DNA of 64,000 bases from Gemmatimonadales bacterium (GCA_007692605.1 REBS01000096.1:1-64000), one strand, 5' to 3'; shown: positions 5,844-51,360, counted from the first letter of the stretch. Program-made: numbers and translations. Notes: generated by a model not told the origin, from the letters alone.

Positions 5844-7364
5844 ATGAACTCGGCGTCAGGCTGGCGTGGTGGGATTCCGGCGTTCCTGATCGGGCTCGCA
5901 CTGAGCATGCTGGGCGAGGTGGCCGCGGGGCTCCTGCTCTACGGGGGGCCGGGATTCCTGCCTGCCCTCTCCGTGATTCTGGCGGTCCTCTTCCTTTCGT
6001 TGGCGGTCGGAGTGATGACCGATGACGGGGCCCGTGGAGGGGCGGCGGTCGAGAATGCCCGACGCCTCTGGCTCTCGCTGCTCTTCTCCTTCAGTCTGGC
6101 CGCCGTTTTCGCGATCGGGTGGGAGATCTTCCGCGGATTCGGGGCCCTCGGGCTGAGCCAGGGCATCGGACTCGCCTTCCTCGTGGCCCTCCCCTTCTAT
6201 TTCGGGGGTCGCATGCTCGGCCATCTGACGGGACTTCCCGGAACCCGGGGTCGGGGGCGGGTGGCGGCCTCGGCGCTGATCGGTGCCGCGGTCGGAGCTC
6301 TCGTCGTCGGGTACCTGTTCTTTCCGAACCTTTCGCCCACCGCCGTCATCCTTCTTTCCCTGGTCGCGGTCTCCGGCGGGGCGCTGGTCCACGGGTGGGC
6401 GCTCGACGAGGTGTTCTGGGTCGACGGGTCCGAACGGCACGTAGGGTCGTCCGGGGTGATCGAGATCGAACGTTGGCTCCGCGGGAATCCGCGCACCGCC
6501 CATCGAGCAGTGCTCGAGAACTCCCGTCTGCGTGCGCTGGTCGATCGGGGGGGAGAGCCTGTGACCGCCGAGGAGCGGGCGATTCTCTCCTTCGTCGAGG
6601 CGGTCCTCCAGCCCATTGCCGATTCTCCCGGCCCGTCCGACCCCACCGGTGCGTCCGATCTCACCGGTCCCATCGATTCCCCGCGTACCTCCCCGGTCTA
6701 CCCGGAGGTTCCCCCGGCACCCACGAGAATCCTCTCGGTGGGACTGGGCGCCGGCGTCCTCGGAGAGGCGATGCGTCGCCGACTCGGAAGTGGCACCCAC
6801 GATGTGCTGGCGTCCGATGCGGCAGGAATGAGACTGATCCTCGAAACGCTGGAGGGGGGCGAGGGGGAGGGAGGCTCCAAACCGCTCGGCCCCCCGCGTG
6901 TGATCCACCTGGACCCGCTCGTGTTTCTGAGCCAGGCGACGGCGCCCTTCACGTCGGGTGCCGCGGACTGGATCCTGGTGGACCTGCTGACCCTTCCGGG
7001 AGCTCCGGCGGGCGCCAGCCTGCCACCCGGCGCGTTCGCTCGGCTGCGGGCCCACCTTCGTCCCGGGGGGCTCCTGGTCCTCTTCCCCCTCATTGAACTC
7101 CCGGGCGGCCCTGACCTGACGACTTCGATCCTCGGAGTCGATGGGGTCTTTCGGGAGTCCAGCCTCTACGTGGGGGGACGAGGCGAGTCCCCGACCGTGG
7201 AGCTTCCCGAGGATCGCGGCTACCCCCGCTTTCCGGCCCCGTCCGGCTCCAGGGGAGCGTTTCTCGTGGCCGGCGACGGACCCGGAGAGCGGTGGCACTG
7301 GCCCGAGTCCGTGCACGGCTTCCTGCGCGTCCCCCGGCTCGGTGGTCCGGGCCGGGCATCATGA
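5844..7364 (+). CDS. Multi-TM membrane protein with C-terminal spermidine-synthase/methyltransferase-like domain
   Basis: About six hydrophobic segments, then ILSVGLGAGVLGEAM...DWILVDLLTLPG...LRPGGLLVLFPLIEL Rossmann-like pattern. Confidence 0.6.
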   Translation: MNSASGWRGGIPAFLIGLALSMLGEVAAGLLLYGGPGFLPALSVILAVLFLSLAVGVMTDDGARGGAAVENARRLWLSLLFSFSLAAVFAIGWEIFRGFGALGLSQGIGLAFLVALPFYFGGRMLGHLTGLPGTRGRGRVAASALIGAAVGALVVGYLFFPNLSPTAVILLSLVAVSGGALVHGWALDEVFWVDGSERHVGSSGVIEIERWLRGNPRTAHRAVLENSRLRALVDRGGEPVTAEERAILSFVEAVLQPIADSPGPSDPTGASDLTGPIDSPRTSPVYPEVPPAPTRILSVGLGAGVLGEAMRRRLGSGTHDVLASDAAGMRLILETLEGGEGEGGSKPLGPPRVIHLDPLVFLSQATAPFTSGAADWILVDLLTLPGAPAGASLPPGAFARLRAHLRPGGLLVLFPLIELPGGPDLTTSILGVDGVFRESSLYVGGRGESPTVELPEDRGYPRFPAPSGSRGAFLVAGDGPGERWHWPESVHGFLRVPRLGGPGRAS

Positions 7365-9631
7365 AGGTCGCCCACCTCTCCGACCTGCACCTCGGGCTCC
7401 GCGTCTTCCCGAAGGTCGAGCGAGGCTGGAATCTCAGGGAGCGGGACCTGGCTTCGATCTTCCACACGGCCGTCCAGGAGCTTTCCCGCCTCCGACCCGA
7501 TCTCGTGCTCCTGAGTGGCAACCTCTTCGATCGCCCCGATCCCCCGTCCACTGCCTTTCTCACCCTCACGCGCGGCATTCGGACGCTGCAGGACCTCCTC
7601 CCCGGCGTTCCGATCCTCGCGATCGCGGGGGAGCGGGATACGCCCCGTGCCCCCGCCGATCCCGGACCCGTGGCCGTCCTCGATGCCCTGCCCGGCGTCG
7701 AGGCGGCCTCCGGGGCTCCTCGTGCGGTGCACCTGAAGGATCTCGGGGCCCACGTCCTTCTGGTGCCCTATCGGGCCGCGGTGCGCCCTCCCTTTCCCCA
7801 GCTCAGGCCCGATCCCTCGGCCCGCTGGAATCTCCTCCTTCTGAGAGGCAATCCGGGGGATCGACCCGGAGCCCTCACGCTGGAGCCCGAGGGGTGGGAT
7901 TACGTGGCGCTGGGGGGAGGGCGTTCCGCGCGGATCTGGGGGCCTGAGCCGGGCCGGGTGCGCACCGCGGGGTCGTTGGAACGCCTCGGGGTCGATCCCT
8001 GGCGGGAATCCGCGGTCGAGAAGGGATTCTGGGTGTTCGACCTGGCAGCGGGCAAGGGGGAGTTTCATCCGCTCCCCGCGCGTCCCGTGATCGACCTGGC
8101 TCCGGTTCGGGTCGACGACGATTCCGATGAGGGAACCCGGAGACTCCGGGAGCTCCTCGAGGGTCTCCCCGGCGGAATCGAAGGCAAGATTCTCCGTGTG
8201 CGACTCCGGGGCCCTCGCGCGGGAGTCGAAGAGAGCGTGTCGCCCGGGCTTCTCTCCGCGATCCGTCGTCGGGCCGCGCACCTCGAGCTCCAGGCCGGAC
8301 CCGGCGACGAGCGACTCCCGGAGCGTCTGGCGGAGCGGCCCGGCGAGGGTCCGGTGACCGAGGCGCAGCTCGTCTGGACCCCGACGGAACGAGAGACCGG
8401 GCTCGAGTCCGAGTCGCGCCTGAATCCGGGCCTGGTCGCCGTGATCGGAGAACGTCCCGAGGATCGTCTGCTCCTGAGCGAACACTTCGGGAATCCCTCG
8501 GGTGACCCACACCCCCGCCTGCTCTCCCTGCGCCTCCGGTACCCGAAGTCCAGAGCCCTTCCCCCGTCAGCCTTCCATCCCTGGCGCGCCGAGCAGAGCA
8601 GCGAACCGGCCGGCACAGGACGAGATGCGGCCGCTCCCCCCACGGTGGTTCGAGACCCCGAGCGATTGCAGGCGCTGCGAGCGGACTGGATCGAGGCCGT
8701 AGGTGACCTCGAGGCGATGAACCTCGAGTGGGTGCGTGAGCGCCAGGAGGCGGAGTCCCGACTGACCGCCTATCGGGATCGCGCCCGGGAGCTGCGCGGC
8801 CGGCTTCGGCGTGTCGAGGAGGCCGGTGCCGAGGCCGAGTGCCCGACGTGCGGTCGTCCCCTCGCCGAGGCTCATCCTGGATTTCGCGATGCGCTGCGGG
8901 AGGAATGGGAGGACGTGGTTCAGGACGGACAATGGTGGAAACGGCGCAGAGAGCAACTCGAGCAGAAGCCCGACACCCTCCGGGATTTCGACCGGAGGGT
9001 CCTGGAACTCCAGTCCGAACTCGAGCGGGCGGCCGAAGGGGTCTTCACCCCCGGCTCCTCCTCCCTCTCCACCCCGCTCGACTCCAGAAGATCGGGCGAT
9101 CCCACCACTCCGGTGGGCGCCGGATCCGTCGCCGCCTCCGCCCCGCCACCCGCCATGCCCTTCGGGCGGCACGATCTGTTCGGTCTGGCCGGGGACCTGC
9201 TGGGGCGGATCACCGGAGGACGCATCCAGGCCCTGGTCCCGGCACCCGATACGGAGGGGTGGTTCGTCCGGAGTCTCACAGGTGAGGTGCGGAGACCAGC
9301 CCCCAGTGACCTCCCTCTCGTCTCGGCGGCGATGCAGCTTGCCGTTGCCACCGACCAGGGCGTGCCCTTCATCGTCCTCCGGCAGTTCGCGGCGACGACC
9401 GACGACGACGAGGTGGTGAGCCTGCTTCAGCTCCTGGGGGCGACCCGACTGGCGATTCCCGTGATCGTCCTGCTCACCCCCGCGCTCGCCGAGCGGATCC
9501 CGGAGCTCCTGGTCGGATCGATCGAAATTCAGCGCGATGACGATGGGCGCGCCCGGATCAGGGAATCGGGCTCCGGGCGACCGGTGGTCACGGTTCCGGC
9601 GACAACTCGAGGAGCTCGCCCTCCAGTCTGA
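7361..9631 (+). CDS. Fusion of degenerate SbcD/Mre11-like domain and degenerate SbcC/Rad50-like zinc-hook/C-lobe
   Basis: MKVAHLSDLHLG start, WDYVALG...RTAGSLERLG..KGFWVFDL SbcD-like architecture; ECPTCGRPL zinc hook; LLGRITGGRIQALVPAPDTEGWFV Rad50 C-lobe-like; ATGA overlap with upstream gene. Confidence 0.65.
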   Translation: MKVAHLSDLHLGLRVFPKVERGWNLRERDLASIFHTAVQELSRLRPDLVLLSGNLFDRPDPPSTAFLTLTRGIRTLQDLLPGVPILAIAGERDTPRAPADPGPVAVLDALPGVEAASGAPRAVHLKDLGAHVLLVPYRAAVRPPFPQLRPDPSARWNLLLLRGNPGDRPGALTLEPEGWDYVALGGGRSARIWGPEPGRVRTAGSLERLGVDPWRESAVEKGFWVFDLAAGKGEFHPLPARPVIDLAPVRVDDDSDEGTRRLRELLEGLPGGIEGKILRVRLRGPRAGVEESVSPGLLSAIRRRAAHLELQAGPGDERLPERLAERPGEGPVTEAQLVWTPTERETGLESESRLNPGLVAVIGERPEDRLLLSEHFGNPSGDPHPRLLSLRLRYPKSRALPPSAFHPWRAEQSSEPAGTGRDAAAPPTVVRDPERLQALRADWIEAVGDLEAMNLEWVRERQEAESRLTAYRDRARELRGRLRRVEEAGAEAECPTCGRPLAEAHPGFRDALREEWEDVVQDGQWWKRRREQLEQKPDTLRDFDRRVLELQSELERAAEGVFTPGSSSLSTPLDSRRSGDPTTPVGAGSVAASAPPPAMPFGRHDLFGLAGDLLGRITGGRIQALVPAPDTEGWFVRSLTGEVRRPAPSDLPLVSAAMQLAVATDQGVPFIVLRQFAATTDDDEVVSLLQLLGATRLAIPVIVLLTPALAERIPELLVGSIEIQRDDDGRARIRESGSGRPVVTVPATTRGARPPV

Positions 9632-11648
9632 GAACCCGCCACCCCGGGGGAACCCAGAGCGTCGACGAGTATTCCAGCACCAGCGCGGGACCCGAGATCG
9701 CATCGGTCGGCAGGGTGCCGCGCCAGTGGATCGGAGTGTCGAGCGTCCGACCCCGCCACCGGACATCCGCCCGGGCTTCCGCGGTCCCTTCCGGGTCGGG
9801 GGAGGGCGTCGAGGGAGGCGAGAGCCCTGGAGCGCTCACCCGGACCCGGGCAGTGACGGCCTCGACCACCGCCCCCTCGCGCCGGTAGCCGTAGCGTGCC
9901 TCATGCTGCGCGTGAAAGGCCTCGACCCAGCCGTCGGCGGGAACCTCGAGTTCCCAGCTCTGCCCACGGTATCGCGCATCGATCCTCGCCGTCACCGAAA
10001 GGGAGTCCGGATCCAGTCCCTCGGCCTCGAGTTCGGCCCTGCCCACTCGTTCGATCTCCTGGATCGCCAGGGCGACGTCGGCCACGGCCTCGGCGTCGTC
10101 CGAGCTTCTGAGGAGCGTGCGGGTCCGGTCCCTGACGATCGGGGCGGCGAGCATCCCCCAGGCCGAGGCAAGTCCCGGATCCGGCGGGATCAGTACCCCT
10201 TTCGCCCCCAGGCGGCCCGCGAGCTCGGCGGCATGGAGGCCTCCGGCCCCCCCGAACGAGAAGAGGTGGAAGTCGTCGGGATCCACCCCTCGTTCGACCG
10301 AAATGACACGAAGGGCCCGCTCCATCGTGGCGTCGGCGACCTCGATCACCCCTTCGGCCGCCGCGTCGGGGTCCGTCCCGAGTTCGCGGGCCAGCGCCTC
10401 GAGCGGCTCCCGCACGGCGTCGCGGTCGAGTCGGGCGGTGCCTCCCAGGAAGCCATCGGGACGCAGCCGTCCGAGCCAGAGGTTTGCGTCGGTCACCGTG
10501 ACCTCGGTGCCCCCGCGTCCGTAGCCGATCGGACCGGGTTCGGCGCCCGCGCTTTCCGGACCGACCCGAAGCGCGCCCCCGGCGTCCACCCGGGCGATCG
10601 AGCCGCCTCCGGCTCCCACGGTGTGGATATCCATGAGGGGGATCGCCACGGGCTGATCGCCGACGCTGCCCTCCCGCGTTGTGAGCAGGCGGTCCGGGAC
10701 GAGCGAGACATCGGTCGAGGTGCCGCCCATGTCAAAGCTGAGCAGCCGCGTGCGTCCCACGCGACGGCCGTGTTCGAGGGCACCCGCCACCCCGCCCGCG
10801 GGACCGGAGAGTACCGTGCGAACCGGCTCCGAGACGGCCCGTGAGAGGGGGAGGGCACCCCCGGCGGATCCCATCACCCGGATCTCGGCCGCGTCGGCAC
10901 CCTCTCGAAGACGGGTCAGGTACCGGGCCATGCGGGGCGCGACGAACGCGTTCACGACCGTCGTCGAGCAGCGCTCGTACTCCCGGAACTCGGGGAGAAT
11001 CCGCGACGAGACGCTGACCGTGCGGCTCCCGCTCCCGATCGCGGCGTCTCCATCGCCCCTGCCCGTGAGAGCCGCCGCGACCGCCTCCTCGTGGCGATCC
11101 GAGGCATAGCTGTGCAGAAGACAGATCGCGATCGACTCCACCGCACCGAGCTCCCCGCCCAGACGGGCGAGCTCGTCGGGCTCCAGTGCCTCGACTTCCC
11201 GGCCATCGGGGTCCAGGCGACCCGAGATCCCGTGACGGTCGTCTCGCGAGACGAGCGGAGGCAGCCGGCTCCCCACGAGCGCGTAGAGCTGGGGACGGTC
11301 CTGTCTGCCGATCTCGATCACGTCCTCGAAGCCCCGGTTCGTGATCAGCCCGACGCGTGCGCCCTTGCGTTCCAGTACCGCGTTGGTGGCGACCGTGGTG
11401 CCGTGGATCAGGAGGAGTTCTTCGCCGCCAGTCCGCTCCCCGAGGAGCTTCCGCAGCCCATCGAGCACGGCACGCGACGGGTCGTCGGGGGTCGAAGGGA
11501 CCTTGAGCGCCGTCAGCGACTCGCCGCGCAGCAAAAGGAGGTCGGTGAAGGTCCCTCCCGCGTCGGCGGCGACCACGACAGCCGTTGACTTTTGTCCGTG
11601 CGGGCGGGACATTCCCGCCCTTCCCGCCTTCTGTTTCCCGTCGGTCAT
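9588..11648 (-). CDS. Hydantoinase/oxoprolinase family protein (HyuA-like)
   Basis: VVAADAGGTFTDLLLL, LLIHGTTVATNAVLERKGARVGLITNRGFEDVIEIGRQ, LSFDMGGTSTDVSLV, PIGYGRGGTEVTVTDANLWLGRL. Confidence 0.93.
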   Translation of the reverse strand: MTDGKQKAGRAGMSRPHGQKSTAVVVAADAGGTFTDLLLLRGESLTALKVPSTPDDPSRAVLDGLRKLLGERTGGEELLLIHGTTVATNAVLERKGARVGLITNRGFEDVIEIGRQDRPQLYALVGSRLPPLVSRDDRHGISGRLDPDGREVEALEPDELARLGGELGAVESIAICLLHSYASDRHEEAVAAALTGRGDGDAAIGSGSRTVSVSSRILPEFREYERCSTTVVNAFVAPRMARYLTRLREGADAAEIRVMGSAGGALPLSRAVSEPVRTVLSGPAGGVAGALEHGRRVGRTRLLSFDMGGTSTDVSLVPDRLLTTREGSVGDQPVAIPLMDIHTVGAGGGSIARVDAGGALRVGPESAGAEPGPIGYGRGGTEVTVTDANLWLGRLRPDGFLGGTARLDRDAVREPLEALARELGTDPDAAAEGVIEVADATMERALRVISVERGVDPDDFHLFSFGGAGGLHAAELAGRLGAKGVLIPPDPGLASAWGMLAAPIVRDRTRTLLRSSDDAEAVADVALAIQEIERVGRAELEAEGLDPDSLSVTARIDARYRGQSWELEVPADGWVEAFHAQHEARYGYRREGAVVEAVTARVRVSAPGLSPPSTPSPDPEGTAEARADVRWRGRTLDTPIHWRGTLPTDAISGPALVLEYSSTLWVPPGWRVLRLEGELLELSPEP

Positions 11649-11660
11649 CGGGTCTGATCC

Positions 11661-13166
11661 ATGGAACTGGTCCCTTCCTTCGAAGAGTTCGTGTCGTTCG
11701 CGCGTGGGGCCCGGGTGGTCCCGCTCCGCGGCGAGTTCCTTTTCGATATCGATACGGCGGTCACCGCCTACCACAAGCTGGCCCGCCCACCCTTCGGCTT
11801 TCTCCTCGAATCGGTGGTGGGAGGTGAAACCTGGGCCCGATACACCTTCCTGGGAACCTCACCCGCCGCCGCCTGGCGCCTCCGGGGCGACCAGGTGTCG
11901 TGGTGGACCCCCGAAGACGGGTGGGTTCCGGTTGAAACCGAAGACCCGCTCTCCGATCTCGATCGGCGTCTCCAGGAGCGGACTCCCGCCGATGTTCCGG
12001 GGCTTCCCCGCTTCTGGGGGGGCGCCGTAGGGTACTTCGGATACGACGTGGTGCGCCAGATCGAGCACCTTCCCGACGCCCCCGCCGAAGGGCTCGACCT
12101 GCCGGATGCGGTGGTGGCCTTCACCGATGTCGTGCTGGCGATCGACAACCTGAAGGGGAGGGCGATGGCGATCCGGTCCGTACCGGTCGAGCCCGGGCTC
12201 GGTCGGGCCGAGCTTCGCCGACGTTACGAGGAGTCGCGGGAATCGATCGAAAGTACGGTCGAGACGCTCCGAACGTCCCACGGCCCGGCCCCCCTCACCC
12301 TCGACCGGGAACCCGAGGGTGATCCTCCCTTCCGGAGCACCTTCGAGCGCTCCGGTTTCGAAGCGGCCGTCGAGCGGGTTCGGGAGTACATCCTGGCCGG
12401 CGACGCCTTTCAGGTGGTCTTGAGCCAGCGACTCGAGATGCAGCTGCGCGCCGAGCCCTTCGATCTCTATCGGGCCCTGCGCACTCTGAACCCCTCGCCG
12501 TATCTCTACTTTCTGGAGATGGACGGCGTCTGCCTGGTGGGGTCCTCGCCCGAGGTGCTCACCAGGGTCGAAGACGGTCGGGTGACGCTGCGCCCGATCG
12601 CCGGAACACGGCGTCGGGGCGCCACGCCCGAGGAGGACCGCGCCCTCGCCGATGATCTGCGGGCCGACGAGAAGGAGCTGGCCGAGCACCGCATGCTGGT
12701 GGACCTGGGACGCAACGACGTGGGTCGGGTGGCTCGGTACGGCACCGTGACGGTCCCCGACCTGATGGTCATCGAGCGGTACTCCCACGTCATGCACATC
12801 GTGTCGCAGGTCGAGGGCGAACTGCGCGACGGGCTCTCGGCGCTCGACGTCCTGCGGGCCTCCTTTCCAGCGGGAACGGTTTCGGGCGCTCCGAAGATCC
12901 GCGCCATGGAGATCATCGACGAGCTCGAGCCGGTCCGCCGCGGGCCCTACGCGGGTGCCGTCGGATATCTCGGCTACGGTGGGCGGACGATGGACACCGC
13001 GATCGCGATCCGGACCGTCCTCGCTCATGAGGGCCGGGCGTACGTTCAGGCGGGTGCGGGCATCGTGGCTGACTCCGATCCGGGTCGGGAGTACGAAGAG
13101 ACCCTGAACAAGGCGCGAGCGCTTCTGCGGGCGGCCGTGATGGTCGGAGAGGGCAGCGGGGCCTGA
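11661..13166 (+). CDS. trpE: Anthranilate synthase component I
   Basis: Chorismate-binding motifs: PIAGTRRRG, DLGRNDVGRVARYGTV, VMHIVSQVEG, FPAGTVSGAPKIRAMEIIDELE; N-terminal PFGFLLESVVGGE. Confidence 0.92.
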   Translation: MELVPSFEEFVSFARGARVVPLRGEFLFDIDTAVTAYHKLARPPFGFLLESVVGGETWARYTFLGTSPAAAWRLRGDQVSWWTPEDGWVPVETEDPLSDLDRRLQERTPADVPGLPRFWGGAVGYFGYDVVRQIEHLPDAPAEGLDLPDAVVAFTDVVLAIDNLKGRAMAIRSVPVEPGLGRAELRRRYEESRESIESTVETLRTSHGPAPLTLDREPEGDPPFRSTFERSGFEAAVERVREYILAGDAFQVVLSQRLEMQLRAEPFDLYRALRTLNPSPYLYFLEMDGVCLVGSSPEVLTRVEDGRVTLRPIAGTRRRGATPEEDRALADDLRADEKELAEHRMLVDLGRNDVGRVARYGTVTVPDLMVIERYSHVMHIVSQVEGELRDGLSALDVLRASFPAGTVSGAPKIRAMEIIDELEPVRRGPYAGAVGYLGYGGRTMDTAIAIRTVLAHEGRAYVQAGAGIVADSDPGREYEETLNKARALLRAAVMVGEGSGA

Positions 13167-46007: not shown

Positions 46008-46793
46008 CCGTTCCGGAACCTCTTCGGGCGGAAGGTGCCCGACCCCGTCGAGCACCACGGAGCGCGCATCGGGCAGCTCGCGCTCCAGTCGCTCCGCGAA
46101 CTCCGGTGGCACGACCGGATCCTCGGCGCCCCACAGGCCCAGCACGGGGAGGGAGAGCTCCGAGTAGCGGCGGCTGACCTTCTCGGCCAGCTCCGGCTGG
46201 ATCTGCCGGCCGGCCTTCAGGATCGCACGCCGTCGGGCCCGCGACTGCAACGGGCCCCGATAGCCCTCCACCAGATCCCGTGTCAGGGTCGACGGGTCGT
46301 GCACGATTCCCCGCAGCCCCATGCGCAGCGCCCAATGGGGGGGTGGCGCGAGCAGGAGGAGCTCGCCCAGCCCGCGAATCCGCGACATCGAGAGGTAGGG
46401 AGGGAGCGACTGGGGATAGATCGCCCCGCTGATCACGACGAGCCCCGCGAGCCGATCCAGTTCCTCCGAATCCAGAAGGCGCAGCGCGGTCAACAGCACG
46501 ACGGCCCCCCCCAGCGAGTGCCCGATGAGCACGGGGGGGTGGCCCGGTAGAGCGCGCAGCCAGCGCGCAAGGTGCTCGGCCTGGGCGGGGGGAGAGTAGT
46601 CGCCCTCGGCGGGGGTGGCGGCGCGCCCGAATCCCATGAGTTCGACCATGTGCACGGGACGCTCGTCCGCAAGCTTCGGGGCCCAGTGGCGCCAGAAGTG
46701 GTTGTGCGCGCCGAACCCGTGAACGAGCACGACGGGGCGTCCGGGAGCCTCGCCGCCCAGGGTGTCGACGTGCAGCGGCGACGGGTCGATCAT
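45900..46793 (-). CDS. Alpha/beta hydrolase
   Basis: VVLVHGFGAHNHFW, LIGHSLGGAVVLLTALRL, LPVLGLWGAEDPVVPPE, VVLDGVGHLPPEE. Confidence 0.93.
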   Translation of the reverse strand: MIDPSPLHVDTLGGEAPGRPVVLVHGFGAHNHFWRHWAPKLADERPVHMVELMGFGRAATPAEGDYSPPAQAEHLARWLRALPGHPPVLIGHSLGGAVVLLTALRLLDSEELDRLAGLVVISGAIYPQSLPPYLSMSRIRGLGELLLLAPPPHWALRMGLRGIVHDPSTLTRDLVEGYRGPLQSRARRRAILKAGRQIQPELAEKVSRRYSELSLPVLGLWGAEDPVVPPEFAERLERELPDARSVVLDGVGHLPPEEVPERSLAVVRAFLSERENPLPDQRPPHPDPRTQRDPERA

Positions 46794-49720
46794 CCGACCT
46801 CGCCGCCTGAGCCTGAGCCTGAGCCTGTGGCTGCGTCTGCGACTGCGCCGGAGCCCCGGACCGAGCCCGGGGGAGGGAGCCGGAGAAGGGCTCCCCCGCG
46901 CGCCTCGACCTCGCGGGCCATGGGGGCATGGCAGGTGAACAGGAAGATCTGCCGCTCCCGGGAGAGCTCGGCCAGCAGTTCCAGCGCCCACCCCCGACGC
47001 TCGGGATCCCAGTTGACGAGGGCCTCGTCCAGAATCAGGGGGAGGGGCTCCCCATCGCCCTCGATGAGCTCGAGCACCGCCAGGCGCAACGCCAGGAAGA
47101 CCTGTTCGCGTGTACCCGTCGAGATCGGCTCGCCGACCGGGAGGGCATCCGGGAGGTGCGGGGCGCGAAGCAGGAGGGCGTCGGGTGTCTCCTCGTCCCC
47201 CAGGATGAGGTTCGTGTAGCGCCCTCCGGTGATTCGGCCGAGGTATGTCTCGGCCCGCCGGATGAGTTTGGGTTGGTGGGTCTCGCGAAACTCCCGTTCG
47301 GCGGTCTTTACGATGCGGGCCAGGATCCGAAGCCGGTCACGCTCCTCCCGAACTTCGGTCCGCTCTTCCTGCAGCCGGAGGATCGCCCCCTCGACCCGGT
47401 CCACGGTTTCACCCTCGAGAAGGGTGGATTCCTCGGTCCGAAGTTCCGCTCCGCGCTCCCGGAGGTCCCCCAGCTCCTCGGTCAGCGCGCGGACGCGCTC
47501 CTCCATCTCCTCGATCGAGCTCGCCGCCTCGGGATCTTCGGACAGGGCCAGGACTCCGGCCCGTACCGACGCCACGGATCCGTGATCGCGGATCAGCTGA
47601 CGCTCGACGTGTCGGGCCTCGGACAGGGCCTCGAGGCGGTCCGCGGCTTCTCTCGCCCGTGCCTCGGGACCGTCGCCCGAGGGGGCCGCGGCCTCGAGAA
47701 GTGCGTGAAGATCGCCAAGCGCACGGGTCGCGGCTTCGACCTGTTCGGACGCACGTTGCCGCTCCGCCCGGACCGCCTCGAGGCGTGTGAGACTCTCTCG
47801 CTTCCGCTCGATTCGTTCCTCGACCCGCTCCATCTCGGCCTCCAGCCGGGTCAGGGTACGCAGCGGGGCGCCTCCTCCACCGTGCAGGTCGTCGCGGTCG
47901 CCGGGGAGGGCGTCGAGGAGAGCCTCGAGCTCCGCCGCGAACTCCCACTGTTCGGCCTCGAGCTCCGAGATCTCGTCCCGCAGTCGGTCGGCCCGGTCCA
48001 GCTGTGCTCTCAGCGCCTCGATCTCGCTCGCGATCGATTCGTCGGGCAGGGCTCCGCGCTCTTCGCGCAGGGGGATCCCCCGGAGCGACTGGTCGACCTG
48101 CTCGGCAGCCGCGGTCGCCTCTGCCCGGAGCTCCGCGATCCGGGTCGCGTGCGCGGCCTGCTCCCGACGACGACGATCGGCCTCGCGCTCGACCTCGCGG
48201 GCGTTGCGGCTCCACTCGCGCAGCGCCCCACCTCCGAAGATGAGGGCGACAAGCCCGGCTCCACCCAGGATCAGGGGGAGCGTCGGGAACCAGCCGGGTG
48301 CGGGGGACGCATCGGTCGCCCCCCCGAGGGCGAGGGTCAACCCGACTGCGACCAGCGTCAGGAGCGCCCCCCCGCCGAGGGCGAGCACGGCCCACAGGGG
48401 GCGGTCTCCGGCCCCGGCCTCACGATCCGGTCGACCCGGAACGGGCGCCGGACCCGGGTGGGTCTCGGCTCGGTCCTCGGCCGAGCGCACGCGGGCCAGC
48501 GCCTCATCGCGGCGCCGGATCCGGTTACGCAGCTCCCCCGCAGGCAGCGAGTCGAGGCGGGCCCGGACCTCGGGGTCGCCTCCCGGCGACGGGTCAGCCT
48601 CGGTGCCCTGGAAGAGCTCCCGCTCGCCGTAGTTGATCGCCTCCTCGACCTCCCGAAGCTCCTGTCGGGCGCGATCGATGCGACGGTCGCGCTCCGCGAC
48701 GACGGGTCGCGCGGCCACGAGGGCTCGGACCCGGCCCTGCCGGAGCTCCAGCGTGTCGAGGAGCGGGTCCGCAGCGGGTTGGGCCTCGTTGGCCTCCACC
48801 TCGACGCGGATGGCCCGCTCGAGTTCCTCGCGACGGGTCCGGAGGTCGGCCTCGAGCTCCGCGAGTCGCTCCAGCGGACCCGAGGGAACCGCCTCGAGCG
48901 CCTCGAGCGGCTCCACGGGCTCCGCCTTCCGACGGAGCGAACGGATCGCCTCGAGCCGGGTCTCGAGGGGCCGGAAGGTGCGCGCTGCAGCAAGAGACTG
49001 CTCCAGCTGCGTGCGCTTCACACGAACGGCCTCTCCGTGCTCCTCCAGCCGCGCCCGATCGCGAACCACTTCGCGGAGCTTTCGATCGCGGTCTCGCGCC
49101 TCGGCGAGACGATCCGACAGGTCCTTCAGCTCCTCGCGGATCTGCGCGGCTCGGGGTGAGCTCCTGCGATCGGGGCGCCAGAGGGATTGCGCCCGCTTCG
49201 AGAGCGCCTCGGCGACCCGGCGTGGAGAGCCCAGGTCGCGGGTCCCCATTCCCACGACGAGTCGATCACGCAGCTCCTTCCAGACCGGCCCTTCCTGCAG
49301 TCGGGCCATGTCGGGCAGGGTGATCGCGTAAACATGCTCGAAGAGCGCCCTGGGGATGTGTCCGGCCGAAGGGATCGCCCGGTTGCCGATGTCCTCGGTC
49401 CGCTCGCCCTCGTCGGTGGGGTGATGGATCCGTCCCCAGGGGGACGTCAGGAGGCGGCGGTGAACCCGGTACTCGGCTCCCGAGCGGGTGTGGATCCATC
49501 CTTCGATCTCCAGATCGGATCCGTCCCAGGGCGCGTGGGGATTCGTGTCCCGCGAGGCCGGATACATCCCGTGGATCAGGGACCGAAGTGCCAGGAAGAA
49601 CGACGACTTTCCGGCCTCGTTGTGACCGAGCACGACGGTCAGTCCGGGGAGTTCGTCGGGCCCCGAGTCCACCTCGAAGAGGGGTCCGAAGCGAACGATC
49701 CGCACGCGCAGGAACCTCAT
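46790..49720 (-). CDS. SbcC/YhaN-like AAA ATPase with internal TM hairpin
   Basis: VVLGHNEAGKSSFFLAL Walker A, C-terminal STGTREQVFLALRLAVLEL and LPLILDEALVNWD; two TM segments between coiled coils. Confidence 0.9.
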   Translation of the reverse strand: MRFLRVRIVRFGPLFEVDSGPDELPGLTVVLGHNEAGKSSFFLALRSLIHGMYPASRDTNPHAPWDGSDLEIEGWIHTRSGAEYRVHRRLLTSPWGRIHHPTDEGERTEDIGNRAIPSAGHIPRALFEHVYAITLPDMARLQEGPVWKELRDRLVVGMGTRDLGSPRRVAEALSKRAQSLWRPDRRSSPRAAQIREELKDLSDRLAEARDRDRKLREVVRDRARLEEHGEAVRVKRTQLEQSLAAARTFRPLETRLEAIRSLRRKAEPVEPLEALEAVPSGPLERLAELEADLRTRREELERAIRVEVEANEAQPAADPLLDTLELRQGRVRALVAARPVVAERDRRIDRARQELREVEEAINYGERELFQGTEADPSPGGDPEVRARLDSLPAGELRNRIRRRDEALARVRSAEDRAETHPGPAPVPGRPDREAGAGDRPLWAVLALGGGALLTLVAVGLTLALGGATDASPAPGWFPTLPLILGGAGLVALIFGGGALREWSRNAREVEREADRRRREQAAHATRIAELRAEATAAAEQVDQSLRGIPLREERGALPDESIASEIEALRAQLDRADRLRDEISELEAEQWEFAAELEALLDALPGDRDDLHGGGGAPLRTLTRLEAEMERVEERIERKRESLTRLEAVRAERQRASEQVEAATRALGDLHALLEAAAPSGDGPEARAREAADRLEALSEARHVERQLIRDHGSVASVRAGVLALSEDPEAASSIEEMEERVRALTEELGDLRERGAELRTEESTLLEGETVDRVEGAILRLQEERTEVREERDRLRILARIVKTAEREFRETHQPKLIRRAETYLGRITGGRYTNLILGDEETPDALLLRAPHLPDALPVGEPISTGTREQVFLALRLAVLELIEGDGEPLPLILDEALVNWDPERRGWALELLAELSRERQIFLFTCHAPMAREVEARGGALLRLPPPGSVRGSGAVADAATGSGSGSGGEVG

Positions 49721-51060
49721 GGCGACTCCCCCTCGCGGCGGAAGTGCTCGATCAGAATGCGGGCGCCCAGGCCACCGCCCAGCAGCCGCCGGACGTAGCC
49801 CGAGGGATCGGACTCGGGGGCGTCCCGAAACCCCGCCAGCTCCGCGGGATCCAGACCGATCCGCTCGATCAGCGCGGCGGTGCCCTCCCTCGATTCGGCC
49901 TCGGCGAGCAGCCGGAGGGCCAGTCCCGCAGGATCCCGCCGCTCCCTATACTGGTCGGGGTCCACGGTGGAGCGGATCCCCTCGACACGAAGTTCCACGC
50001 CGAGCAGGTCGAGGGTGCGCGCGATCTCGTCGCCGAGGTCCCGGCGGCTCTCGGGATGGTCGAGTTCGGCGGCCAGGGGTGACGCTCCCACCGGAACGAG
50101 CCGCACGATCCATTGCGTGCCGGGCAGTCCTGGATCCTCTGCCCGAAGCTCCCGCCACCGGTCCCCGACGATTCCGATGAACTCGTCGAAGGTGGTTGCC
50201 GCACGGAGCCCGTCGACCTCGAGCCGCTCCCACCGGACCGGAGCCAGCTCCACGAACTCGACCGAGGGCGCGACCCCGGCTCCGGGCAGCTCGACCAGGA
50301 GCGCCCCCTTGGCGCCCGTCTCCCGGGGAGACCGGCCCTGGGGGTTCCCGGGATAGTGGATCCCGGGCAGGCGCTCCAGCGCCTCGCGCAGGTGAATGTG
50401 GCCCAGCGCCCAGTAGTCGTAGCCGGCCCGCCTCAGGTTGGGCAGCTCCGAGGGCGCGTAGCGGTCATGGTCCGCGGCCCCGCCCGCTCCGGTCACCTGC
50501 GTATGGAGCATCGCCACGGCGGGAAGCCCGGCTCCGGCCTGCCCTTCCGGGCCCACGGCGTCCGGTGCTCCCGATTCCGCGGGCTGCGAATCGCGCCACG
50601 ACGAGGGAGAGGGAAAGCGGGTCGACAGATCGTCGGCTTCGTGGGCGACCGCGTGCCCCGCCGCGGTCACCGTGCCCACGACCTCCCCGTCGCGTCGCAG
50701 TTCGACGGTCCTCGGCTGCGGCCGGTCGAAGAGCTCCACATGATCCGGCCACTCGATCCGCCCGCTCCCGGCGATCCCCTGTCCGGGATCGTGATTTCCG
50801 GTGCAATAGAGAAAGGGGATTCCGGCCTCCCCGAGACGCTCGAGCTCCCGCAGCAGAAACCGTTCGGTCCGATAGGAGAGACGCCGGCCATCGAAGAGAT
50901 CGCCCGCCATCAGGACCCCGTCGACCTCGCGCTCGATCGCCAGCGAAACGGCCCGGCGCAGGACCTCACGGCCGGCTTCGCGAAGCCGGTCGCGAAGCTC
51001 GGGTGAGCGCGCGGCGAACAGGGTGTCGAGGTGCAGGTCCGCCAGGTGGAGTATACGCAT
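49717..51060 (-). CDS. SbcD/YhaO-like DNA repair exonuclease
   Basis: MRILHLADLHLDT, GVLMAGDLFDG, YCTGNHDPG, YWALGHIHLREAL: complete metallophosphoesterase motif set. Confidence 0.93.
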   Translation of the reverse strand: MRILHLADLHLDTLFAARSPELRDRLREAGREVLRRAVSLAIEREVDGVLMAGDLFDGRRLSYRTERFLLRELERLGEAGIPFLYCTGNHDPGQGIAGSGRIEWPDHVELFDRPQPRTVELRRDGEVVGTVTAAGHAVAHEADDLSTRFPSPSSWRDSQPAESGAPDAVGPEGQAGAGLPAVAMLHTQVTGAGGAADHDRYAPSELPNLRRAGYDYWALGHIHLREALERLPGIHYPGNPQGRSPRETGAKGALLVELPGAGVAPSVEFVELAPVRWERLEVDGLRAATTFDEFIGIVGDRWRELRAEDPGLPGTQWIVRLVPVGASPLAAELDHPESRRDLGDEIARTLDLLGVELRVEGIRSTVDPDQYRERRDPAGLALRLLAEAESREGTAALIERIGLDPAELAGFRDAPESDPSGYVRRLLGGGLGARILIEHFRREGESP

Positions 51061-51189
51061 GGACTCCGGTGGGATGGTGGCGTTGGCTTCCCCCGACCCG
51101 GGCGATCCGGCGGGGTTCCGACTCAAGCTATCGGGGAGCGCCGACAGGGCCAATGGTTGAATGGGCCTTCCAATCCCCGCCGCAGGGCC

Positions 51190-51218
51190 TTTACGAGGAC
51201 GGGGGCAGGTGGTACGAT
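51190..51218 (+). promoter_or_regulatory. Putative sigma70 promoter of NAD-GDH gene
   Basis: TTTACG-N17-TACGAT, about 140 nt upstream of the ATG. Confidence 0.3.
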
Positions 51219-51360
51219 ACCGGCACTCATCCGCCCCGTCGGCCCCAGGTGGCGACCGGCGATCATTCACCCGGGCGTTGCGTGCACGGATCAAGCCCCG
51301 GGCTCCTTTGCCCGAGGCCTCTGCGCCCCCCCTTCGAGCCCTCTCTCGAGACCTTCTTCG

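Follow-up and report, generated by a model that had tools for sequence, protein, structure and literature searches.

Mre11-Rad50 (SbcCD) is among the most conserved DNA-break machines, and its nuclease and ATP switch are usually taken as its reason to exist. Natural fusions of the two subunits are known: proteins of the Mimivirus R555 type carry Mre11 at the N-terminus and Rad50 at the C-terminus, result from recurrent fusion, keep Walker A, Walker B and most nuclease residues, and are patchily distributed and linked to viruses and plasmids (PMC3175470). Nuclease-dead forms have been made in the laboratory, where loss of the motif III histidine in the point mutants P. furiosus (Pf) H85S and yeast H125S removes nuclease activity, both exo- and endonuclease in the case of H85S (PMC8007570), with the Rad50 ATPase left intact. 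Here we describe a 756-residue Mre11-Rad50 fusion encoded in a 64,000-nucleotide stretch from a Gemmatimonadales bacterium (GCA_007692605.1, REBS01000096.1:1-64000; hereafter the window). It shares domain order and recurrent fusion with the R555 type, but is vertically inherited, chromosomal with conserved synteny, and predicted to be catalytically dead; it shares the motif III loss (at His92) with the point mutants, but here loss appears to be natural and to extend to both sites. Its parent complex was probably inherited vertically, lost nuclease and ATPase once, at the base of the family, was later fused several times and has been kept as a structural scaffold. At the level of sequence, this reading is based on the following: the gene is orthologous to intact pairs, both active sites are lost, the zinc hook is invariant, purifying selection is strong, and the folds are those of Mre11 and the Rad50 C-lobe. 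We found nothing in the literature on pseudo-Mre11/Rad50 or on Gemmatimonadota SbcCD, and a search of papers outside subscription journals turned up no Mre11-Rad50 that is doubly dead throughout a lineage.

The protein is the translation of a single open frame with the Mre11 part N-terminal and the Rad50 part C-terminal (Table 1). Set against the nuclease motifs DxH, GDxxD, GNHD/E, GH and GHxH, it keeps D8 and H10 and carries D54N, N91E, H92R, H162R, H186G and H188R. An initial annotation of this DNA had described a fusion ruined in both catalytic halves but retaining hook and architecture, and translation and profile alignments bear this out. GNLFD, GERD, ECPTCGRPL and the stretches at the Walker A and Walker B positions, the latter beginning with FIVLRQFAATTDDDEV at residue 670 (9368), read as it had stated; ALGGGR is present too, in an interval slightly wider than the 7913-7924 it had assigned. 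Two losses come in addition, those of the motif IV His (R162) and of the ATP-binding cassette (ABC) signature.

With a profile built from the family, E-values reached 1.5e-23 against Mre11 structures and 3.6e-9 against Rad50 ABC structures, and these same stretches aligned with the expected motifs: GERD sits on GNHE and ALGGxH on ALGHIH of solved Mre11, and in P. furiosus Rad50 (PfRad50) the Walker B stretch sits on LLILDEP and SEED on the SGGE signature. At the Rad50 sites the family consensus reads leep for LILDEP, seed for SGGE and GgsGrarrE for GQNGSGKSS, where the Walker A stretch was aligned to IIGQNGSGKSS of PfRad50 in a sub-threshold segment, placed by position. Searching the fusion itself with NCBIfam and Pfam gave only weak signals, one for an Mre11/SbcD N-terminus at E 1e-11 to 1e-5 (under the NCBIfam cut-offs and slightly over that of the generic Pfam Metallophos) and one for the hook. 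The likeness to SbcCD/Mre11-Rad50 was recovered in an AlphaFold model (59 sequences; a monomer without metals), with mean predicted local distance difference test (pLDDT) 85.9 and predicted template modelling (TM) score 0.74, which shows an Mre11 phosphoesterase with its cap and, as remnant of the ABC head, a reduced N-lobe and a C-lobe, joined by a hook coil with two arms of ~60 residues each. In Foldseek the whole model retrieved Mre11 structures at the top (TM by target length mostly 0.55-0.72 among top matches), and the C-terminal half alone retrieved Rad50 and SMC heads (E ~1e-6), in several over ~144 C-lobe residues at 3.3 A; against BFVD only generic SbcD/SbcC-like viral proteins were found. 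Within the head, it is the C-lobe that aligns to PfRad50, the N-lobe being weakly matched.

The fusion protein matches only itself in its own genome, where a search for further SbcD gave only a YhaO-like gene, the fusion gene and one weak metallophosphatase. Among relatives close enough for the search patterns used, 75 of the 98 searched gave matches; in the window's own Gemmatimonadota family these comprise 48/58 genomes (one marginal) and 39 genera, with a shared chromosomal locus. Family genomes giving no match include G009, G010, G013, G016, G018, G037, G046 and G048, and loss is apparently possible. A family-profile scan of 84,980 species left 80 loci, all titled Gemmatimonadota save one metagenome-assembled genome (MAG) labelled Gammaproteobacteria. 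Two layouts occur within the family, one fused gene or an adjacent Mre11 (~350-390 residues) and short Rad50 (~450-510 residues). Sister families of the order and class carry a separate intact pair with GNHD, GHYH, an 815-residue Rad50, GPNGAGKST and LILDEV. With this Rad50 as query, family genomes match only in the hook and its flanks at the dead locus. Three genomes are exceptions: away from this locus, G038 has a distant full-length homologue, and G023 and G027 match the C-terminal part. In G011 the dead gene is present twice (L073, L077). The two copies have diverged, their best segments sharing ~54% and ~69% identity with the window, and each reads ESE at the GNHD position; a MAG strain mixture is possible.

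In motif III, neither the catalytic His nor the Asn occurs in any of 89 family sequences and Arg (xRD) occupies the site in 86, as compared with sister families, where His is present in 12/13 and Asn in 11/13. When the window's genus is set aside, the remaining 86 dead sequences all keep D8, H10 and D54 (86/86), and all but one keep H188 (85/86), while Asn91 and His92 are kept in 0/86 (Arg in 83 at the latter), H186 in 6/86 and H162 in 54/86. By their P. furiosus equivalents, we take D8, H10, D54 and H188 to be ligands of one metal and the others to serve the second metal and proton donation. To call the whole family metal-dead would therefore be wrong, since these four residues are essentially invariant outside the window's genus. 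Within it, 3/3 sequences have lost both D54 and H188, and 1/3 has also lost H10. Of the changes first noted in the window, the losses of GNHD and of Walker A and B are family-wide. The change from GDLFD to GNLFD and the missing final His of GHxH are confined to the window's genus, with one fragmentary exception for the latter. No retrieved family member has a GKS/T Walker A, whereas all sister-family Rad50 proteins whose frame is complete have one. Among aligned Rad50 halves, 55/55 retain the two hook cysteines, and the hook coil, with a mean identity of 0.55, is the best-conserved part of this half, ahead of the C-lobe (0.32) and the N-lobe remnant (0.27). Identity in the Mre11 domain is 0.50 in the dead set vs 0.56 in the intact set. 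Two relatives deserve mention: in a sister species (G001, L071:7364-9610) the motif I His is also gone (DLQLG in place of DLHLG), a further decay of the metal site; and in G077, of a different family of the order, the Mre11 beside an intact Rad50 (L045:2915-4075) reads GDRD and GHHP instead of GNHD and GHxH, possibly an independent loss of nuclease activity alone.

Across the family the locus is flanked by rsgA, btuCDF, a flavin-reductase-like gene and trpE, and the intact pair in a sister family is flanked likewise by rsgA, a flavin-reductase-like gene and trpE. A tree of the Mre11 domain split 10 intact rows from 43 dead rows with 99% support and needed one activity change and four fused/separate changes, at least two of the four forced by well supported branches; inactivation thus appears to have come first and fusion to have been recurrent. 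The intact two-gene pair at the same locus in sister families likewise places a single inactivation before repeated fusion. Judged by synteny and tree, the fusion is a vertical, same-locus descendant (orthologue) of the order's own intact Mre11-Rad50 pair, and the label "paralogue of SbcCD" in the initial annotation has to be given up. With sister-family SbcCD it shares the locus, the domain order, the Mre11 fold with cap, a homologous upstream membrane gene and very similar hook flanks (CPTCGRPL, QDGxWW). Unlike it, the fusion is a single chain without the Mre11 catalytic His/Asn or the Rad50 Walker A, signature and Walker B, and its short arms contrast with the long coiled coil of SbcCD (hundreds of residues; the sister-family hook lies at residue ~405 of 815). 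By descent it is an orthologue, yet on its predicted residues it fails the defining catalytic features of SbcCD.

Is the gene still under selection? When the window was compared with its sister at 86% identity, the ratio of nonsynonymous to synonymous substitution rates (dN/dS) was 0.14 over the whole gene. By region, it was lowest in the hook (0.05) and the Mre11 domain (0.06), reached 0.13 in the C-lobe and rose to 0.39-0.49 in the linkers; neighbouring genes gave 0.03-0.17 in the same comparison, and other dead pairs with usable dS gave 0.03-0.22 (simple Nei-Gojobori estimates, with dS close to saturation in some pairs). These low values rule out a simple pseudogene. A slowly decaying pseudogene or functionless remnant would fit the stepwise loss, furthest along in the window's genus, the fast-evolving linkers and the absence of the gene from some relatives, but we regard it as very improbable given the dN/dS values, long open frames in dozens of genera, invariant hook cysteines and an Mre11 identity near that of intact sets. 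The source genomes are mostly draft MAGs, so that an assembly or frameshift artefact might have joined two genes; we give this practically no weight, since the same fusion occurs in independently assembled MAGs of different projects and the dead genes are also found, as two separate genes, in the complete chromosomes CP070829 and OX639991. The pseudogene and frameshift readings, which the initial annotation had left standing, were both rejected on these grounds.

The other two alternatives grant the gene a function. In one, which we consider unlikely, a single metal site (D8, H10, D54, H188) serves a different, one-metal phosphoesterase reaction or ligand sensing, with the window's genus as an offshoot that later became fully dead. 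The retention of these four residues alongside total loss of Asn91 and His92 speaks for this, as does the almost uniform Arg in place of the catalytic His, which resembles a new role, not drift. However, loss of the motif III His by itself kills Mre11 nuclease (PMC8007570). Moreover, D54, H188 and in part H10 are gone from the window's genus while its domain dN/dS stays low, so that metal is dispensable there. The other, rather improbable, makes the fusion a regulator or adaptor of an intact YhaO/YhaN-like nuclease-ATPase pair, or of another resection machine. Such a pair lies 39 kb away in the same genome (Table 1) and, like the fusion, combines a phosphoesterase (DLHLD, GDLFD, GNHD and GHIH intact) with an SMC-like ATPase (Walker A GHNEAGKSS, Walker B LILDEA); unlike the fusion, it consists of separate genes with intact motifs, has no CxxC hook and belongs to another Pfam family (AAA_27, PF13514), to which the fusion had no Pfam match. 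AddB/RecB-type PDDEXK nucleases are also kept in the genome, strong AAA_27 matches (E<=1e-12) occur in 22/35 family genomes, and in about ten a single contig carries both loci, 23-87 kb from each other (including G006, G011, G017, G019, G024, G026, G031, G041 and G050). But several carriers of the dead gene (G007, G014, G020, G029, G030) have no AAA_27 match, and the loci are neither adjacent nor in an operon, at a spacing that fits ordinary shared gene order. The proximity could reflect either a functional neighbourhood or simply gene order that has been conserved. With the query used, the pair turned up in many own-family genomes and in no sister family. That the fusion is a paralogue of this pair (46790-51060 in the initial annotation) was rejected, because Pfam places the pair in AAA_27 and an own-genome search with the fusion finds only itself.

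Under the preferred reading, of a dead complex kept as a scaffold, the chain would dimerise through Zn(II) shared by two CPTC hooks, by analogy with the Rad50 hook, which serves constitutively as a dimerisation module (PMC6969161); the Mre11 dimer face may offer a second contact. With a coiled coil of only ~60 residues, or roughly 9 nm, the dimer would be a compact clamp or tether, able to hold DNA or partner proteins with no need of ATP and without cutting them, and fusion would fix a 1:1 stoichiometry. The stop of an upstream six-transmembrane gene overlaps the ATG of the fusion (ATGA, 7361-7364); start/stop overlaps of this kind with an upstream frame occur at 43/70 dead loci. Translational coupling would link the fusion to this membrane protein, which may place it at the membrane. 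We advance only tentatively the stronger proposal that the entire family turned Mre11-Rad50 into an ATP-independent, non-cutting zinc-hook tether translationally coupled to a membrane protein. Of the roles first suggested for the gene, purifying selection and family-wide conservation favour a structural or regulatory one, and there is no evidence for a decoy.

Several points weigh against this picture. Tethering by canonical complexes depends on ATP binding by Rad50, so the dead head must work differently. D8, H10, D54 and H188, so widely retained outside the window's genus, may leave room for non-nuclease catalysis or metal sensing in the rest of the family. The membrane gene also precedes intact pairs and is thus not specific to the dead form. 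In 10/58 family genomes no match was found, so the gene can be lost or missed, and the sequences come nearly all from MAGs. If the reading is true, the family is a natural separation-of-function experiment, with a selected structural role for Mre11-Rad50 without either catalytic activity. Dozens of genera without both activities, with invariant hook Cys and an Mre11 domain almost as conserved as in active homologues, would isolate a non-catalytic function and make it directly testable. The graded series from intact pair to dead pair, dead fusion and doubly dead fusion would be a good case of an enzyme complex becoming a pseudoenzyme.

Table 1. Positions in the window of the fused gene, its domains and motif sites, and associated genes (aa, amino acids of the fusion).
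Feature	Position	Strand	Basis or remark
Operon partner: membrane protein with six predicted transmembrane helices, spermine-synthase/methyltransferase-like C-terminal domain (weak)	5844..7364	+	Homologues at dead and intact loci
Fused pseudo-Mre11/pseudo-Rad50 gene (predicted), 756 aa	7361..9631	+	Open frame; orthologues in sister species at 86% and 55-61% identity; dN/dS 0.14
Mre11-like calcineurin phosphoesterase domain, aa 1-245	7361..8095	+	AlphaFold (AF2); Pfam Metallophos 1.6e-5; Foldseek to Mre11 structures
Motif II GNLFD in place of GDLFD, aa 53-57	7517..7531	+	Asp to Asn restricted to window's genus
Motif III GERD in place of GNHD/E, aa 90-93	7628..7639	+	Catalytic His to Arg across family
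Motif IV His to Arg (R162)	7844..7846	+	Family alignment
Motif V ALGGGR in place of ALGHxH	7907..7924	+	Family alignment, profile vs Mre11
Mre11 capping-domain-like region, aa 255-315	8123..8305	+	AF2 secondary structure
Rad50 N-lobe remnant, aa 336-393	8366..8539	+	AF2; poorly conserved, mean pairwise identity 0.27
Walker A position VAVIGERPEDRLLLSEHF, aa 359-376, without GKS/T	8435..8488	+	Profile vs PfRad50, family alignment
Short antiparallel hook coiled coil, helices aa 433-491 and 502-561	8657..9043	+	AF2 pLDDT >94 over most; dN/dS 0.05
Zinc-hook motif ECPTCGRPL, aa 493-501	8837..8863	+	Both Cys invariant, 55/55 family sequences
Rad50 C-lobe-like domain, aa 606-745, without signature or Walker B	9176..9595	+	Profile vs PfRad50 E=3.6e-9; Foldseek C-half to Rad50/SMC heads
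ABC signature position, PAPSDL in place of LSGGE	9296..9313	+	Profile alignment, family alignment
Walker B position, FIVLRQ in place of LLILDE	9368..9385	+	Profile alignment, family alignment
YhaN/YhaO-like pair, overlapping genes	46790-51294	-	AAA_27 (PF13514) SMC-like ATPase at 46790-49720, plus phosphoesterase

The window's upstream membrane gene matched no Pfam family. Its homologues at dead and intact loci are similar at E down to 6.5e-46, and the view that this partner came with the dead form was abandoned, since homologues precede intact pairs too (E ~1e-46), there 350-510 bp away. Some family members (L128, L131, L127) carry the transmembrane part of this gene alone. At its other end, the fusion overlaps a convergent 5-oxoprolinase/hydantoinase-like frame (9588-11774, minus strand) by ~43 bases (9588-9631).

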